From: Actinomycetota bacterium
GTDB taxonomy: Bacteria > Actinomycetota > Rubrobacteria > Rubrobacterales > Rubrobacteraceae
Direction: 5' to 3'
Assembly: GCA_902810695.1 (NCBI GenBank)
Contig: CADDYV010000038.1
Coordinates: forward strand, 1 to 33,247
DNA length: 33,247 nucleotides
Each line of letters begins with the position of its first letter. Position 1 is the stretch's first letter. The translations under genes and the position numbers were made by a program. Under the pieces are notes generated by a model that worked only from the letters and a program-made list of their open reading frames with translations, was not told where the DNA came from and ran no database searches. Shown piece by piece: positions 19,561-25,212 of the stretch.

Positions 19561-19588
19561 AAATAAGGAGATCCCGTGCGGGATCCCC
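19561..19588 (-). terminator. Candidate terminator of the cytochrome operon
   Basis: GATCCCG (19570-19576) and CGGGATC (19579-19585) form a perfect stem 32 nt after the last stop codon of the minus-strand operon; two outer G-C pairs extend it. On the minus strand CCTTATTT follows, so the T tract is weak. Confidence 0.4.
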
Positions 19589-19619
19589 TCTCCGAACTAC
19601 GGCAGGTGAGCCTATCCGG

Positions 19620-19745
19620 TTAGTCGTTCTTGCTGATCCAGTACGTAAACAACATCCCGCCACAGAAGAGGCACAGGATTATGAAAAAGCCGACGAATAT
19701 GTTGGCCGGGCCTTTCGTGCTAATGAGAAGAAGAGCTTGCTCCAC
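19620..19745 (-). CDS. 41-residue single-helix membrane protein, candidate small oxidase subunit
   Basis: A short reading frame at the end of the respiratory operon. It begins with GTG at 19745, preceded by AAGGGAG at a 9-nt spacing, overlaps the last 26 nt of the preceding bd-like gene in another frame, and ends with TAA at 19620. The protein has a short N-terminus (MEQALLLISTKGPAN), one helix from about 16 to 37 (IFVGFFIILCLFCGGMLFTYW), quoted as 21 residues in two pieces, and a polar end ISKND. Known bd oxidases carry tiny one-helix subunits such as CydX, CydS or CbdX encoded downstream; position, size and topology match. No sequence identity to CydX is claimed. Confidence 0.72.
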   Translation of the reverse strand: MEQALLLISTKGPANIFVGFFIILCLFCGGMLFTYWISKND

Positions 19746-21075
19746 CAGTGTGTACTCCCTTCTGCATGCTGTTACCAGCCGGGCAGGTGCTCGGCGTATA
19801 CTTCTGCTGCAACGTGATGCAACCGTTGATCAGATAACCTGGGTTGTTATTCAGGCGGCGGGCCGATTCGCGGGTAGATCCCATATCTATCATCGTGAGG
19901 ACCACCGTCACCGCGCATACCATCAAGAGGATCTGGCTCCACCTGCTCGCCCGGCCCCAGTGAAACCCTGTTGCCGAAGCCTTGAGGTAGAGCCCGATGA
20001 CGACGAACCCGATTATGGAGATCCCGATCAGGCCGATGTACTTCCAGGGATACATGGCCCCCAGCGGGAGCTGCCCGTTACCAAATACCAGCCCGAGTTG
20101 AGGCACTATGTTGCCGGTAAACGGGATGACGTTCAAAAACGAGAACAGCGCTGTGAAGCCCAGACACCCGACAACCAGCTTGCGTGTCCCTTCCATCGGC
20201 TTGACCGCAAACCTCAGCTTGTGGACGAAGTAGACCGTCGAGGCGATGCTCAAGATGGCGATGAGCACGACCAGCAGGTTGAAGTGCCAGGCCTGCTTGC
20301 CGAGCATGATCGTGTTGAACGCCTGCGGCGAGGCCTCCCGGATGCTCTTGAGATACCCGTACCCGATAACCGGTTGCGCGAGCATAAACCCGAAGCCCCA
20401 GATAAGCCCCCAGTGTCCCATCCAGTCGTAGTATTCCCGGTCTTCTTCGCTGGTGCTGTGCAGGAAGCGCCAGGCTCCCCAACCGGCTACCAGGAAGCCC
20501 ACGTAAGAGAAGTTTCCGACGAAGCGGTGCATGTTCAACGGTATGTTCGTCGGGTTCAGGAAGGTGCGGGCCACGTCGGTAACGGGGGCTTCGGCGGGCG
20601 TGAGCATGTAGGAGGCCACCGCGTCTATCATCGTCATCGCCATAAGCCCGAAGAAACCGGAGACGAATCCGAAGACTACGTGCAGCGTCTTGCGGTAGGC
20701 CAGCTTGTCCCAGACGTTGTACCAGGCGTAGACGATGATGATCTGGCCCAGGAACATGAAAGCCTCGACCAGAAACACCCAGAAGAAAGTGTTCTGCAAG
20801 TACGAGAAGAAGATCGGAAAGAGCGTAACCAGCGCCAGGACGAACGTGATCGCCAACGCCGCCCCGCTCGCGAACACGAGCACCACGAAGCGCGCGAGGT
20901 TGCGGGCGAACCTCTCGTAGCGCGGCTGCTTGGTTACCAGCCCCAGGTACTCGCTGGTGGCCGCTATGAGGACCGCCCCGATAATGAAGGTGGCAAACAG
21001 TATGTGCGTCTGGACGAGAGAGGCTATTACAACGTTCTTGCCGATTACCGGGACATGAAGGTTACCGATAGGCAT
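19720..21075 (-). CDS. Cytochrome bd subunit I-like protein (second CydA paralogue)
   Basis: An integral membrane protein of 451 residues and about nine to ten helices in the CydA family, which oxidises quinol and carries haem b and other haems. H24 (VQTHIL) fits the axial ligand equivalent to E. coli H19, and H183 (NMHRFVGNFS) that of H186. One acidic residue, E104 in FWVFLVEAF, sits in the region of the proton-channel glutamates. I see no GRQPW motif and no typical Q-loop. The C-terminus after the last helix has NNNPGYLING, CITLQQKYTPSTC and a Ser tail. No cydB follows. It is the last large gene of the operon, 10 nt after the cytochrome b C-terminal gene. Confidence 0.85.
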   Translation of the reverse strand: MPIGNLHVPVIGKNVVIASLVQTHILFATFIIGAVLIAATSEYLGLVTKQPRYERFARNLARFVVLVFASGAALAITFVLALVTLFPIFFSYLQNTFFWVFLVEAFMFLGQIIIVYAWYNVWDKLAYRKTLHVVFGFVSGFFGLMAMTMIDAVASYMLTPAEAPVTDVARTFLNPTNIPLNMHRFVGNFSYVGFLVAGWGAWRFLHSTSEEDREYYDWMGHWGLIWGFGFMLAQPVIGYGYLKSIREASPQAFNTIMLGKQAWHFNLLVVLIAILSIASTVYFVHKLRFAVKPMEGTRKLVVGCLGFTALFSFLNVIPFTGNIVPQLGLVFGNGQLPLGAMYPWKYIGLIGISIIGFVVIGLYLKASATGFHWGRASRWSQILLMVCAVTVVLTMIDMGSTRESARRLNNNPGYLINGCITLQQKYTPSTCPAGNSMQKGVHTGGASSSSH

Positions 21076-21085
21076 CCACTACCTC

Positions 21086-21571
21086 CTAGCCGCCCGAGGT
21101 GGGGAAGTTGATAACCCGGCTGATCCCCAACAACATGTTCAGAATTATCACCACCACCACCAGAAGCCCGACGGTGGTCGCAAAGGGGCGCTTCATCGGA
21201 CTGAACTCGGACCCCCGATCCAACCACGGCACCGCGAACAGAACGATGATGAAGATCGTCGGCACCACCACGGCCCCGAAGCTGATCAGGGCGTAGCCGG
21301 GGAAGAACATCAGCATCTGCTCGTAGAAGAAGAAGAACCACTCCGGCCTGGGTACGTAAGAGATGGTCGCGGTGTTGGCCGGCGCGGTGAGCGGAGCAGG
21401 AGAGACATAAGAGAGCACACAGGCAGCCACAAGCAGAAGCGTAGACACATACCCGTCTCTTAAGACCTGACCGGGGAAGAAGCCCATCGTCTCGTCCGGG
21501 CGGTCGAAGACATTCTCCTCGGTTATTACTTCTTCTTCAACCGGTTTGGCTTTACCTGGTGCTACTTCCAT
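21086..21571 (-). CDS. Cytochrome b C-terminal half (subunit IV-like)
   Basis: A 161-residue membrane protein with three helices (about 43-58, 92-115 and 133-152), the second half of a split cytochrome b as in b6f and many Gram-positive menaquinol complexes. The quinol-oxidation-site motif appears as RPEWFFFFYEQML, the PEWY signature with Phe in place of Tyr. The N-terminal 35 residues are polar and rich in Glu/Lys. The start is ATG with AAGAGGG directly upstream. The preceding b6 gene ends 78 nt before it, an unusually loose spacing for this operon. With cytochrome b6 and Rieske it forms the quinol-oxidising core. Confidence 0.9.
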   Translation of the reverse strand: MEVAPGKAKPVEEEVITEENVFDRPDETMGFFPGQVLRDGYVSTLLLVAACVLSYVSPAPLTAPANTATISYVPRPEWFFFFYEQMLMFFPGYALISFGAVVVPTIFIIVLFAVPWLDRGSEFSPMKRPFATTVGLLVVVVIILNMLLGISRVINFPTSGG

Positions 21572-21649
21572 CCCTCTTCAACCTCTCTCCCGCTGACCTC
21601 ATATATCAGAACGATAGCAATTTCTCTACCTCGTGTACGGTAAGAGATT

Positions 21650-22432
21650 TTACTCTCTCTCGATTTCTTCTCCTTCATCTGCCTCGTAGCGGGCGAATTC
21701 TTCGAGTTGCTGGCTCTCGCGCAGCTTCGTGAGCCGGTCGGTATACTCGAACTCCGCCCCAAACTCGCCGTGCCGCCTCAAGAGGTAGAGATGTATCCCG
21801 ATAAACGGCGCCAGCACCGCCGGGAGCAGCCACACGTGAATAGCGAAGAACCGGCTCAAAGTTGCCGGCCCGGCCACGTCCCCGCCGAGGAGGAAGTGGA
21901 TCACATACGGCCCGATGAACGGCGAGTACGAGCCGATCTTCATCCCTACCACAGAGGCCCAGAACCCATCCTGGTCCCAGCGCAGCAGATAGCCGGTGAA
22001 CGCGAGCCCGACCACCAGCAGCAGGAGGATCACGCCGATGACCCAGTTCATCTCCCGCGGCGCCTTGTAGGAGCCGCTGAAGAAGGTGCGCGCCATGTGC
22101 AACCCGATAACCGCCATCAGGAAGTTCGCCGACCAGTAGTGGATTCCGCGGATGAGGACGCCGAAGTAGACGCCGTGCATGATGTAGTAGACCGAATTCC
22201 ACGCGTGGTCGGTGGTCGGCACGTAGTAGAAGAGCAGGAGGATCCCGGTGATGAACTGCAAAACTATCAAAAAGAGCGTCGCGCTCCCTAAAGTGTAGAG
22301 CCACGCCCCCCTCTTCGGGACCGGCTCGTAGAGGAAGTGCTCCAGCATCGTGACAATGCCGGTCCTGTCCTCCATCCAGTCTACGAGGAACTTGCTGGCC
22401 TCCGAAGTCTGGGATCTAATCCTGCCTATCAC
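21650..22432 (-). CDS. b6-type cytochrome b (N-terminal half)
   Basis: The four-helix dihaem subunit of the quinol:acceptor complex. Haem ligands are H98 and H112 (13 residues between) and H199 and H214 (14 between); the 13/14 pattern is that of b6 rather than mitochondrial cytochrome b. GYLLRWDQ precedes the third helix. The position equivalent to the b6f cysteine that binds haem c(n) (FYCLGG) reads LYTLGS here, and the protein has no cysteine at all, so that extra haem is not expected. A charged 45-residue C-terminal extension ends in EGEEIERE. GTG start after GGAGGAG. It lies 14 nt after the Rieske gene. Confidence 0.93.
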   Translation of the reverse strand: MIGRIRSQTSEASKFLVDWMEDRTGIVTMLEHFLYEPVPKRGAWLYTLGSATLFLIVLQFITGILLLFYYVPTTDHAWNSVYYIMHGVYFGVLIRGIHYWSANFLMAVIGLHMARTFFSGSYKAPREMNWVIGVILLLLVVGLAFTGYLLRWDQDGFWASVVGMKIGSYSPFIGPYVIHFLLGGDVAGPATLSRFFAIHVWLLPAVLAPFIGIHLYLLRRHGEFGAEFEYTDRLTKLRESQQLEEFARYEADEGEEIERE

Positions 22433-22446
22433 CGCTCCTCCAAACT

Positions 22447-23157
22447 CTAGACCACAAACGGCCGCTGGAAGCCGTTCTTGGGACCGACGTTGGTGAAATG
22501 ATGCTTTACGTAGATGTTGCCGTCCTCGCGCACCTGGAACTCAAACTTGTACAGGCCCCGCGGCGGCGGGCCGCCCACCCAGTTGCCGTTGATGTCGTAG
22601 AGCCCGCCGTGGCAGGGGCAGAGGAAGAGGTTCTGGTTCGTCCGCCAGCGTACCGGGCACCCCAGGTGCGCGCAGGAGTTGCTCATGACGTTGAGCTTCG
22701 ACTCCGCTTCCTTGATCTGCTCCTTCGTCAGAGGCGTCTTGAAGCCCTTTTTGACGAACTCGGGCATCTGACTCTTGCCGATCTTGTCCGGCCCGACCCC
22801 GGTTGGCACATCCTTGATTACCGGCGCCGCCCACGAAGCGTAGATGGCGCTCCTGACGTCGAACCTGGAACTCTTGCCCACCCCGCTCTTCTTAGCAATC
22901 TTCTCGCTTCCGTACGCCTGGTTGATCTGGAAGTCAACCTCGAAATGTTGAGGCTCATTCTCCGGGATGTCCTTGATCGGGCCGAGCTTGTACCACTTCT
23001 GCGGTACGTTGGTCTCTTTCTTGACATCGTTCTGGATCACCGGCTGCAGAAGATACCCTATCGGGGGGATGGTCAGTATCGCCCCGACAATCGTCCCGAT
23101 CGCCCCAAACCCGAGAAAATCGCCCCTGGTCATGGGGTCTTTTTGTAGCTCTGCCAA
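22447..23157 (-). CDS. Rieske [2Fe-2S] protein
   Basis: The mobile iron-sulfur subunit of the bc-type complex. An N-terminal anchor lies at about 14-38 (GFGAIGTIVGAILTIPPIGY). Cluster ligands are C162 and H164 (SCAHLGC) and C180 and H183 (CPCHGG), with C167 and C182 placed for the usual disulfide; GPPPRGLYKFEF follows as the conserved Pro loop. About 70 residues between the anchor and the cluster domain include a Lys-rich section (KIAKKSGVGKS), longer than in b6f Rieske proteins. Start is TTG with AAGGA upstream; ATG at codon 9 is an alternative. It lies between the first CydA-like gene and cytochrome b6. Confidence 0.94.
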   Translation of the reverse strand: MAELQKDPMTRGDFLGFGAIGTIVGAILTIPPIGYLLQPVIQNDVKKETNVPQKWYKLGPIKDIPENEPQHFEVDFQINQAYGSEKIAKKSGVGKSSRFDVRSAIYASWAAPVIKDVPTGVGPDKIGKSQMPEFVKKGFKTPLTKEQIKEAESKLNVMSNSCAHLGCPVRWRTNQNLFLCPCHGGLYDINGNWVGGPPPRGLYKFEFQVREDGNIYVKHHFTNVGPKNGFQRPFVV

Positions 23158-23203
23158 CCTCTTCCGTCCTTTCTAGACGTCCCCTGGTCTTGGAAGCTAC
23201 CCC

Positions 23204-24565
23204 CTATCTGCCGAACCCGCTCGGCGGCGGACTGCTATTCACAGAATAGCCCGGTTGATTATATACCGTATACGGGTCCCGCGAATTGGACTTCATAAGC
23301 CCCATACTGAGCGCCGTCGTCGCCGCTATTACCCCCAGAGCCATGACCGTAACGCGGTACCACGTTCCCGGACTGCCGTAGAGGAAGCGCAACCGGCCCC
23401 GGAAATAGGCCACGAACGTTCCGAAGGTCGCAAACACCATTATCGCCATCGCGATATACCGCGCCCAGAACACCGGGAACTCCGCCACCGGAGAGATAGA
23501 GTATAGCCCGGCCACCGTCGCCAAAAGCCCGAAAATGCGTATCGCGGAACGCCCTCCCCGGTCCGGGTGCCTGGCAGCTCCGAGATACATCGCCAGGCTG
23601 GAGAGCACGAACAGCAAGACGACGAGTATCAGGTTGAAATACAACAGATGCGAGGTGAAGCTTCCGGCGTTGTGTCCCGTTCCCATGAGTCTGCTGAAGG
23701 CCCCGCCCCTCGCCTCGGGCGATACCGGGTGCGCCGGCGCCGAGCCTTTTAGCGCGTAGGCCATCAGGAACCCCATGAACGGCTGGAGCATGAGAAAGCC
23801 TACGCCCCATGTCAGCCCCACCGAGGAACTCCAGTCGTAGAACGCCTTGTCCTCATCGCTCTTGGAGCGCATGTACATGAAAGCCGCCCACGCCGCCACC
23901 GCGAAGGCCGGCCAGGAGAGGTTGGCGAAGGTCCGGTGCAGGACCATCTCCGTAAACATCGGGTTGAAGATCCCCTTGACGGCCGCGCTGAAGCTCGAGA
24001 TGTTGCCGGGTGTAAGCCGCGGAGTGTTGGAACCGCCGCCATCGGTCATGAACGTGTCTATGCCGGAGAGTACGACCATCCAGATCCAGATAAACAAGCC
24101 CATCCCAAAACCCATCGCGATGTGGCGCTTCTTGTGGAGCACCGTGTAGCGATCCCACTTGTAGTAGTAGGAGTACATCGCCCACAGCGCCAGTACCATC
24201 GATATCATGGCGATGATCGGGAAAAAGAAGAAGAAGTGGGTAAAAAGCGAGGTCGTAACCCTCGGATAGAAGCCAACCAGGAGCACCAGGAAGAGAACCG
24301 CGAAGGTGGCCCCGGTCGAGAAGGTCAGCACGTTGAAGCGCGCCATCGAGTGCGCCAGCCTGTCCATCCTCGGGCTGCCGGTGCGCGCTCCCCAGGCCTG
24401 CAGGACCGGCCCGGCGATGGCGAATCCCACGAAAAGCTCCGCGAAGAACATGTGGCTGAGCATCACGATGCCCGCAAACGCCCTGGTCCCTCCGGGAAAG
24501 CTGATCTTCGAGAGGTCTAGCTGTGCCAGGAAAAAGTGAAGGCTCAACAGGCTCGTGTAATCCAC
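23204..24565 (-). CDS. Cytochrome bd subunit I-like protein (first CydA paralogue)
   Basis: A 453-residue membrane protein of the CydA family and paralogue of the one at the other end of the operon. H38 (MLSHMFFAEL) and H210 (VLHRTFANLSW) occupy the two haem-ligand positions. The helix that holds the proton-channel glutamates in E. coli reads HFFFFFPIIAMISMVLALWAM, with no Glu at all, quoted in segments of one motif. GRQPW and a Q-loop are not seen. The end has YNQPGYSVNSS, like the NNPGYLING of its paralogue. GTG start with AGGAGGAG 5 nt before it, 11 nt after the stop of the upstream gene. It may have become an electron-transfer or structural subunit; this is inference. Confidence 0.83.
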   Translation of the reverse strand: MDYTSLLSLHFFLAQLDLSKISFPGGTRAFAGIVMLSHMFFAELFVGFAIAGPVLQAWGARTGSPRMDRLAHSMARFNVLTFSTGATFAVLFLVLLVGFYPRVTTSLFTHFFFFFPIIAMISMVLALWAMYSYYYKWDRYTVLHKKRHIAMGFGMGLFIWIWMVVLSGIDTFMTDGGGSNTPRLTPGNISSFSAAVKGIFNPMFTEMVLHRTFANLSWPAFAVAAWAAFMYMRSKSDEDKAFYDWSSSVGLTWGVGFLMLQPFMGFLMAYALKGSAPAHPVSPEARGGAFSRLMGTGHNAGSFTSHLLYFNLILVVLLFVLSSLAMYLGAARHPDRGGRSAIRIFGLLATVAGLYSISPVAEFPVFWARYIAMAIMVFATFGTFVAYFRGRLRFLYGSPGTWYRVTVMALGVIAATTALSMGLMKSNSRDPYTVYNQPGYSVNSSPPPSGFGR

Positions 24566-24576
24566 GCTAACTCCTC

Positions 24577-25212
24577 CTAGGCACTCCCGGTGCGGTTTGC
24601 AACAGACTCTCCCCGCAAGCGTTCTCCCGCCCGGCGCATGACGGCCTGGTGGATGGCCCTCGGCTCCAGCCGCCGGTCAACTATAAAGTAGGTCGCATTG
24701 CCTCTCTGCAAAGCCTCGCGTATCGGCCGTATGAGGCGCCGATCACGCGTCGCGGCGAACACCAGCACTTTGCCCATCTCGAACTGGTCATTCCAGCTTC
24801 CCGACTCTTCGCGGGGCGCCTCCATATCCGTCAGTATAGGAGCTACGCCAACCCTGGTGAAAGACCCCGCCACGAGTATCGCCGAGAGGGAGAGAAACAC
24901 TATGAACGCCGGTACCCCGATAGCGGGTGTCGTGGCGATGAAAAACAGTCCTATGAAGATGAATGCCACCGCGAACCCTAGAGGCACCTCCAGCCCGCGG
25001 CGGTCGTCCGGGATCACGATGTAGCGCGTCCCCGGAGGGAAAGGTTCCCGCTCGCTTGGATTTTTGCGCTTGAGGATCACCGTCAGGTCGTCCTCTACGC
25101 CGAGGTCCCTGATCTCCCTGACCACCTGGTTGAGTTCCGCACCGTCGCTTATGACGCCGACGACCGTGTATTCAGAACCTGCTGGTCTTGGCTCCTCCCG
25201 CCCTTTTTCCAA
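24577..25212 (-). CDS. Membrane protein of unknown function, first gene of the respiratory operon
   Basis: A 211-residue protein. Residues 15-72 resemble a small alpha/beta module of the kind seen in YflT/heat-stress proteins (YTVVGVISDGAELNQVV, IRDLGVEDDLTV). Two adjacent helices follow at about 77-98 and 99-118, then a second soluble part (VLVFAATRDRRLIRPIREAL) that may echo the first. Both soluble parts probably face the cytoplasm. TTG start with GGAGG 4-5 nt upstream. It lies 11 nt before the first CydA-like gene, so it is in the operon; a role in assembly or as an accessory subunit, like the two-helix ActD of alternative complex III, is a possible but unproven parallel. Confidence 0.7.
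   Translation of the reverse strand: MEKGREEPRPAGSEYTVVGVISDGAELNQVVREIRDLGVEDDLTVILKRKNPSEREPFPPGTRYIVIPDDRRGLEVPLGFAVAFIFIGLFFIATTPAIGVPAFIVFLSLSAILVAGSFTRVGVAPILTDMEAPREESGSWNDQFEMGKVLVFAATRDRRLIRPIREALQRGNATYFIVDRRLEPRAIHQAVMRRAGERLRGESVANRTGSA

Follow-up and report, generated by a model that had tools for sequence, protein, structure and literature searches.

Within the cytochrome bd superfamily, the OR-N group, reportedly defined by Murali, Gennis and Hemp in 2021, comprises enzymes built on a pair of CydA paralogues (CydAA'), without CydB and without the quinol-binding loop, that adjoin a quinol-oxidising complex. In Nitrospirales, the CydAA' pair of OR-N5 is encoded directly downstream of alternative complex III (PMC12342949), and for the OR-N enzyme of Nitrospinota the use of cytochrome c is presumed (PMC10839748). 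The cluster of seven genes treated here, at positions 19,620–25,212 of contig CADDYV010000038.1 (C38) from a Rubrobacteraceae genome (G000; 3.59 Mb, 98% complete), has the same hallmarks; the window, that is, the whole stretch of DNA analysed, is 33,247 nt long. The cluster differs in its partner, a Rieske/cytochrome b6/subunit IV core encoded within the operon itself, with a cydA gene on either side, and in belonging to a lineage from which c-type cytochromes are apparently missing. These two traits are what is apparently new, an OR-type CydA pair beside a quinol-oxidising complex being already known; no Rieske-CydAA' operon was found described in the literature searched, though Murali et al. 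2021 may mention one.

Judging from the genes and their conservation, it is rather probable that the seven products form one membrane complex, a cytochrome-c-free menaquinol:O2 oxidoreductase in which the Rieske protein would feed the CydA/CydA' pair directly. A single complex that oxidises quinol and passes electrons onward without cytochrome c had been proposed in an earlier sequence-only reading of the window, and it is now supported by the invariant synteny of the genes and by the duplication of six of them as a block; the onward transfer without cytochrome c gains further support from hidden Markov model (HMM) searches, which found no c-type cytochromes or their assembly genes in the relatives, and no haem-copper O2 reductase in Rubrobacteraceae. 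The features of the cluster, in the order of transcription, are:

24577..25212, minus strand: conserved first gene, 211 aa; soluble parts flanking a transmembrane (TM) hairpin; in first place in all complete copies
23204..24565, minus strand: CydA1, CydA-like protein, 453 aa; about 10 predicted TM helices; PF01654
22447..23157, minus strand: Rieske 2Fe-2S protein, 236 aa; PF00355; N-terminal membrane anchor with TRGDFL (Tat-like)
21650..22432, minus strand: cytochrome b6-type subunit, 260 aa; Cytochrome_B PF00033, 1.6e-45
21086..21571, minus strand: subunit IV (cytochrome b C-terminal half), 161 aa; Cytochrom_B_C PF00032
19720..21075, minus strand: CydA2, CydA-like protein, 451 aa; about 10 predicted TM helices; PF01654
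19620..19745, minus strand: small protein with a single TM helix, 41 aa; its gene overlaps the end of the CydA2 gene; conserved C-terminal FTYWISK motif
19565..19590, minus strand: strong terminator-like hairpin with a T-rich tail, directly after the last gene; region z -3.6; moderate evidence

The seven open reading frames (ORFs) are separated by successive gaps of 11, 46, 14, 78, 10 and -26 nt, and the gene order, common strand and spacing from overlap to 78 nt first described for them were borne out by the ORFs and by Pfam. The hairpin, which may close the transcription unit, is absent from the list of a simple terminator scan, hence the moderate evidence assigned to it. The two CydA-like proteins match PF01654 with 34.9 and 71.4 bits (cut-off 26.2), and the matches cover only the N-terminal half of the profile. 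Neither the first nor the last protein matches a Pfam family; homologues of the 41-aa protein occupy the last place in 23 operon copies, and 17 of the 24 homologues of the first gene have a weak match to YflT, a stress-protein domain (best E 0.0027). The possibility that the first gene is ActD/DUF3341-like, as in alternative complex III, found no support. The CXXCH motif is absent from all 188 sequences formed by the seven proteins and their homologues, and cydB occurs neither within the cluster nor in any operon copy. The earlier statement that CydB and CXXCH are lacking is therefore valid for the cluster; the genome itself is not free of cydB, as contig C10 carries cydAB and a further cydB is found at the edge of contig C101.

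As for its distribution, CydA2 is present in 26 of the 27 Rubrobacteraceae genomes included in a sample of 296 actinobacterial genomes, two of the 26 having contig-end fragments only; the other 269 genomes gave a single remote match (G272, from another actinobacterial family), discarded as a canonical CydA with the GRQPW motif. Weak half-profile matches to PF01654, of the CydA1/CydA2 type, were confined to Rubrobacteraceae among 198 genomes searched, and the GTDB species genomes that hold close CydA2 relatives bear the labels Rubrobacteraceae, Rubrobacter (R. marinus and R. taiwanensis included) or unassigned Actinobacteria. A search for the same gene order, advised in the sequence-only reading, retrieved 25 complete operons, all in Rubrobacteraceae and none in the 269 other genomes, plus three cut by contig ends; order and strand are always the same, with zero insertions, and such identity over 25 complete copies places the cluster far beyond chance.

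A second, divergent copy (B) occurs in five genomes: G000 (contig C47), G195, G280, and the closed genomes of R. xylanophilus AA3-22 (G011; 3,022,875 bp) and DSM 9941 (G041; 3,225,748 bp; PMC6706694). The split between the A and B copies was recovered by FastTree for all six large genes, with support of 0.996-0.999 for four of them, 0.84 for subunit IV and 0.37 for CydA2; the CydA2 split, weak by this method, had a support of 97/90 by IQ-TREE. Since the same split recurs in the six large genes, the unit was duplicated and retained as a block; of all the sequence evidence for a joint function of the products, this shared duplication is the strongest.

The B copy of G000 (C47; L006 3516-8018) is located directly downstream of genes for a molybdopterin-oxidoreductase-like protein, a 4Fe-4S protein and an NrfD-like membrane protein; these formate-dehydrogenase-like neighbours suggest a donor that feeds the B copy via the quinone pool. 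Solo CydA2 genes, with neither bc genes nor CydA1, are found in R. xylanophilus DSM 9941 (L075 6906-8264), in R. xylanophilus AA3-22 (L078 6134-7501) and in G026 (L087 8582-9913). The search of plasmids for CydA1 and CydA2 gave remote relatives only, one of them OR-C-like; the closest plasmid cytochrome b, from Deinococcus, was rejected as a counterpart, its neighbour being a haem-copper oxidase and not a CydA.

Regarding the quinol-oxidising part, the features typical of a Rieske/cytochrome b complex are conserved: the Rieske protein has the cluster ligands C162/H164/C180/H183, plus C167/C182, cytochrome b6 has the haem-binding histidines H98/H112/H199/H214, and the P-E-W motif of the Qo site reads PEWF in subunit IV of 27 of 27 operon copies. 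The division into b6, subunit IV and Rieske protein, along with the four b-haem histidines, is shared with the b6f and the Bacillus-type b6c complexes; unlike them, the Rubrobacteraceae unit has no cytochrome f/c, has PEWF instead of PEWY, and is devoid of the haem cn-binding Cys known from b6f, cytochrome b6 having YTLG in 27 of 27 copies. A cytochrome c1, f or other c-type subunit, which would define a bc1 or b6f complex, is not encoded in the operon. In the actinobacterial bcc-aa3 supercomplex, electrons move from quinol to O2 inside one supercomplex with no diffusible carrier; the same is proposed for the Rubrobacteraceae unit, with the difference that bd-superfamily proteins take the place of the haem-copper oxidase and that there is no dihaem cytochrome c. 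SoxM and SoxABCD of Sulfolobus likewise join a Rieske-cytochrome b pair to an oxidase with c-type cytochromes absent, but their oxidase is an archaeal haem-copper enzyme, and SoxM includes the copper protein sulfocyanin.

CydA1 and CydA2 belong to the bd superfamily by their PF01654 scores, by their fold and by their ligands of the H19 and H186 type. In CydA2, the invariant residues H24, E104 and H183 correspond to H19, E99 and H186 of E. coli and align with H21, E101 and H186 of Geobacillus CydA, an assignment backed by profile comparison with canonical CydA; in CydA1, H38 and H210 (equivalent to H19 and H186) are invariant, and the counterpart of E99 is missing. In most of the solved bd oxidases, haem d is on the first His, haem b595 on a Glu, and haem b558 on a His together with a Met (PMC8951039). 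Unlike the canonical enzymes (qOR, CydAB), with which they share the CydA fold and, in CydA2, the H19/E99/H186 equivalents, the two proteins have no CydB in their operon and neither the Q-loop nor the GRQPW motif; the region after TM6 is modelled instead as an extra TM hairpin. The AlphaFold models have ten long helices each, and their best foldseek matches are all CydA subunits of bd oxidases, with moderate TM-scores; the ninth helix of canonical CydA has no counterpart in them, so that the C-terminal tails should face the periplasm. The predicted periplasmic tail of CydA2 contains two invariant cysteines, C419 and C431, which perhaps form a disulfide.

The phylogenetic tree places the clades of CydA1 and CydA2 as sisters (95/86), and a branch with 100/100 support parts both from canonical CydA. 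The assignment to the OR-N/CydA-CydA' group, made in the sequence-only reading, is backed in part by the pairing of two CydA paralogues without CydB, by the missing quinol-binding loop and by this separate branch; in the tree, which held no OR-N reference sequence, both proteins fall on the side of an OR-C-type protein from Agrobacterium, itself on a long branch of unsure placement. The Agrobacterium protein, encoded on a plasmid (WP_142845917.1; L165 4983-6473), has a stretch RE..RKPYVI that resembles the tail of CydA2, and it differs in continuing with a cytochrome c domain where CydA2 has its short tail with two cysteines. A fused or linked cytochrome c, distinctive of OR-C, is not present in the Rubrobacteraceae unit, as no CXXCH occurs in 57 CydA1/CydA2 homologues or in the rest of the operon.

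As for other respiratory enzymes, a COX1 HMM search gave matches in two of 30 Rubrobacteraceae genomes, and both matches carry the NorB cytochrome-c-like domain of quinol nitric oxide (NO) reductases; thus, no haem-copper O2 reductase was found in the 30 genomes. Cytochrome c family PF13442 was absent from 29 of 30 genomes and PF00034 had nothing above cut-off in 16 of 17, the exception being, for both, contig C94 of G000; the cytochrome c assembly family was found in none of 17 genomes. Contig C94, of 7 kb, carries a gene for a two-domain cytochrome c (L148 50-826), which was discounted because of its lower G+C (55% vs ~61%) and its absence from the relatives; the contig is probably a contaminant in the assembly. 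CydB exceeded the cut-off in 19 of 39 genomes and, where examined, its gene adjoins its own full-length cydA; in G000, neither the canonical cydAB of C10 nor the cydB of C101 is linked to the cluster. A cydB that pairs with the proteins of the cluster, named in the sequence-only reading among the findings that would overturn it, was not encountered where the neighbours of cydB were examined.

In R. xylanophilus DSM 9941, HMM searches of the closed genome found no CydB, canonical CydA, COX1 or cytochrome c, and the four PF01654 matches are all CydA1 or CydA2; the unit is the only O2-reductase candidate found in this aerobic organism. Rubrobacteria, R. xylanophilus included, have independently been described as having no cytochrome c oxidase, their respiration being attributed only to a 'cytochrome bd ubiquinol oxidase' (PMC7901476); with CydB and canonical CydA not found in DSM 9941, this label can there only mean CydA1/CydA2, if the searches are complete. 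R. radiotolerans RSPS-4 is aerobic and cytochrome-oxidase positive, and it uses O2 and nitrate as acceptors (PMC4148983). As the unit is the sole O2-reductase candidate in at least one aerobic species, bacteria of the Rubrobacter family probably respire without cytochrome c.

In the mechanism proposed for the complex, menaquinol, which is the expected donor in Actinomycetota, would be oxidised at the Qo site of the b6/subunit IV core; one electron would reach the Qi site by way of haems bL and bH, as in the Q-cycle, and the other would go from the Rieske cluster to a periplasm-facing haem of CydA1/CydA2, which would stand in for both cytochrome c1/f and the soluble cytochrome c. The Rieske protein of a bc core usually reduces a c-type haem; as none is encoded in the operon or apparent in the relatives, the nearest candidate acceptor in the operon is this periplasm-facing haem. 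CydA1 and CydA2 would then act as an OR-type CydA/CydA' heterodimer, without CydB and without a quinol loop, passing the electron to an active-site haem, which CydA2 most likely holds at H24/E104 and at which O2 would be converted into water. With the Q-cycle, the charges separated per electron would number about 2, compared with 1 in canonical bd, and in R. xylanophilus the complex would be the only respiratory O2 reductase.

Some observations weigh against this mechanism, and they lend themselves to other explanations. A Glu of the E445 type and a Met of the M393 type were found in neither CydA1 nor CydA2, so that of the three classical haem sites one or two may be absent or have other ligands; moreover, the C-terminal halves of both proteins failed to align with canonical CydA, and their models, made without partners, are moderate (pTM 0.71 and 0.79), with TM-scores to PDB structures of ~0.4-0.56. 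The missing ligands, together with the lack of the E99 equivalent in CydA1, would suit a pair that reduces no O2 and works as a b-haem transfer module, replacing cytochrome c1/f and feeding another oxidase or acceptor. About half of the Rubrobacteraceae, G000 included, have a cydB that could belong to such an oxidase, and in these genomes the unit need not be the sole oxidase. This explanation is nonetheless unlikely, as CydA2 retains equivalents of H186 and of H19/E99, the pair at the in-plane high-spin haem, and R. xylanophilus DSM 9941 has, by HMM search, no other O2 reductase and no soluble cytochrome c that could take the electrons away. The negative searches are themselves imperfect: C. 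glutamicum, expected to have an aa3 oxidase, was used as a control and was missed by the COX1 search, and the search for AOX, in which no control was matched, is uninformative.

A slightly smaller chance is given to the operon encoding two separate enzymes: a bc complex that delivers to some acceptor of its own, and a quinol oxidase formed by CydA1/CydA2 that works independently. The solo CydA2 genes of G011, G041 and G026 fit this division, and an archaeal CydAA' enzyme is said, in the work of Murali et al. 2021, to oxidise quinol directly; the Q-loop, however, is missing from both CydA1 and CydA2, a stand-alone bc complex would have no acceptor in organisms where c-type cytochromes are missing, and the bc genes, flanked in every copy by the two CydA genes, were duplicated with them. 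Finally, the 'cytochrome bd ubiquinol oxidase' that PMC7901476 lists for all Rubrobacteria would favour a standard cytochrome bd oxidase next to a standard bc complex; this reading is highly improbable and already refuted by the sequences: CydB is missing from the cluster, and none was found in R. xylanophilus; PF01654 is matched over half of the profile only; the c-type subunit is missing; and the clade is apart from canonical CydA (100/100), which sits elsewhere in the same genomes with its own CydB.

If the single complex is confirmed, it would represent a new junction between complex III and a terminal oxidase, in which a Rieske protein supplies electrons to a bd-superfamily enzyme and no cytochrome c takes part, and it would imply a higher energy yield than that expected from a bd-type oxidase; it would also explain the respiration of the radiation- and desiccation-resistant Rubrobacter, and correct the published view that this genus simply relies on a standard cytochrome bd ubiquinol oxidase. 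A broader proposal, put forward tentatively and at a little less than even chances, is that Rubrobacteria, a whole aerobic class, respire without c-type cytochromes or haem-copper O2 reductases via an obligate bc-CydAA' supercomplex; this would directly couple a Q-cycle to an O2 reductase of the bd superfamily, might contain no haems other than b, and would give about twice the charge separation of ordinary bd. R. xylanophilus DSM 9941, where the unit is the only apparent O2 reductase, is culturable.

Other observations concern the remaining oxidoreductase genes of the family. The quinol NO reductase genes of the NorB type (L158 65-2353 and L162 4285-6624) belong to two genomes, one being beside cydAB and the other near a nitrate-reductase-like gene. 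In G000, the cydB at the edge of C101 (L101 301-5995) is followed by a 4Fe-4S/NrfD frame as well as a molybdopterin oxidoreductase, unusual neighbours for a bd gene, and the canonical CydA of C10 (L007 6480-7901) has Asn at the position of the E445-type Glu, as do the aligned mycobacterial CydA sequences.

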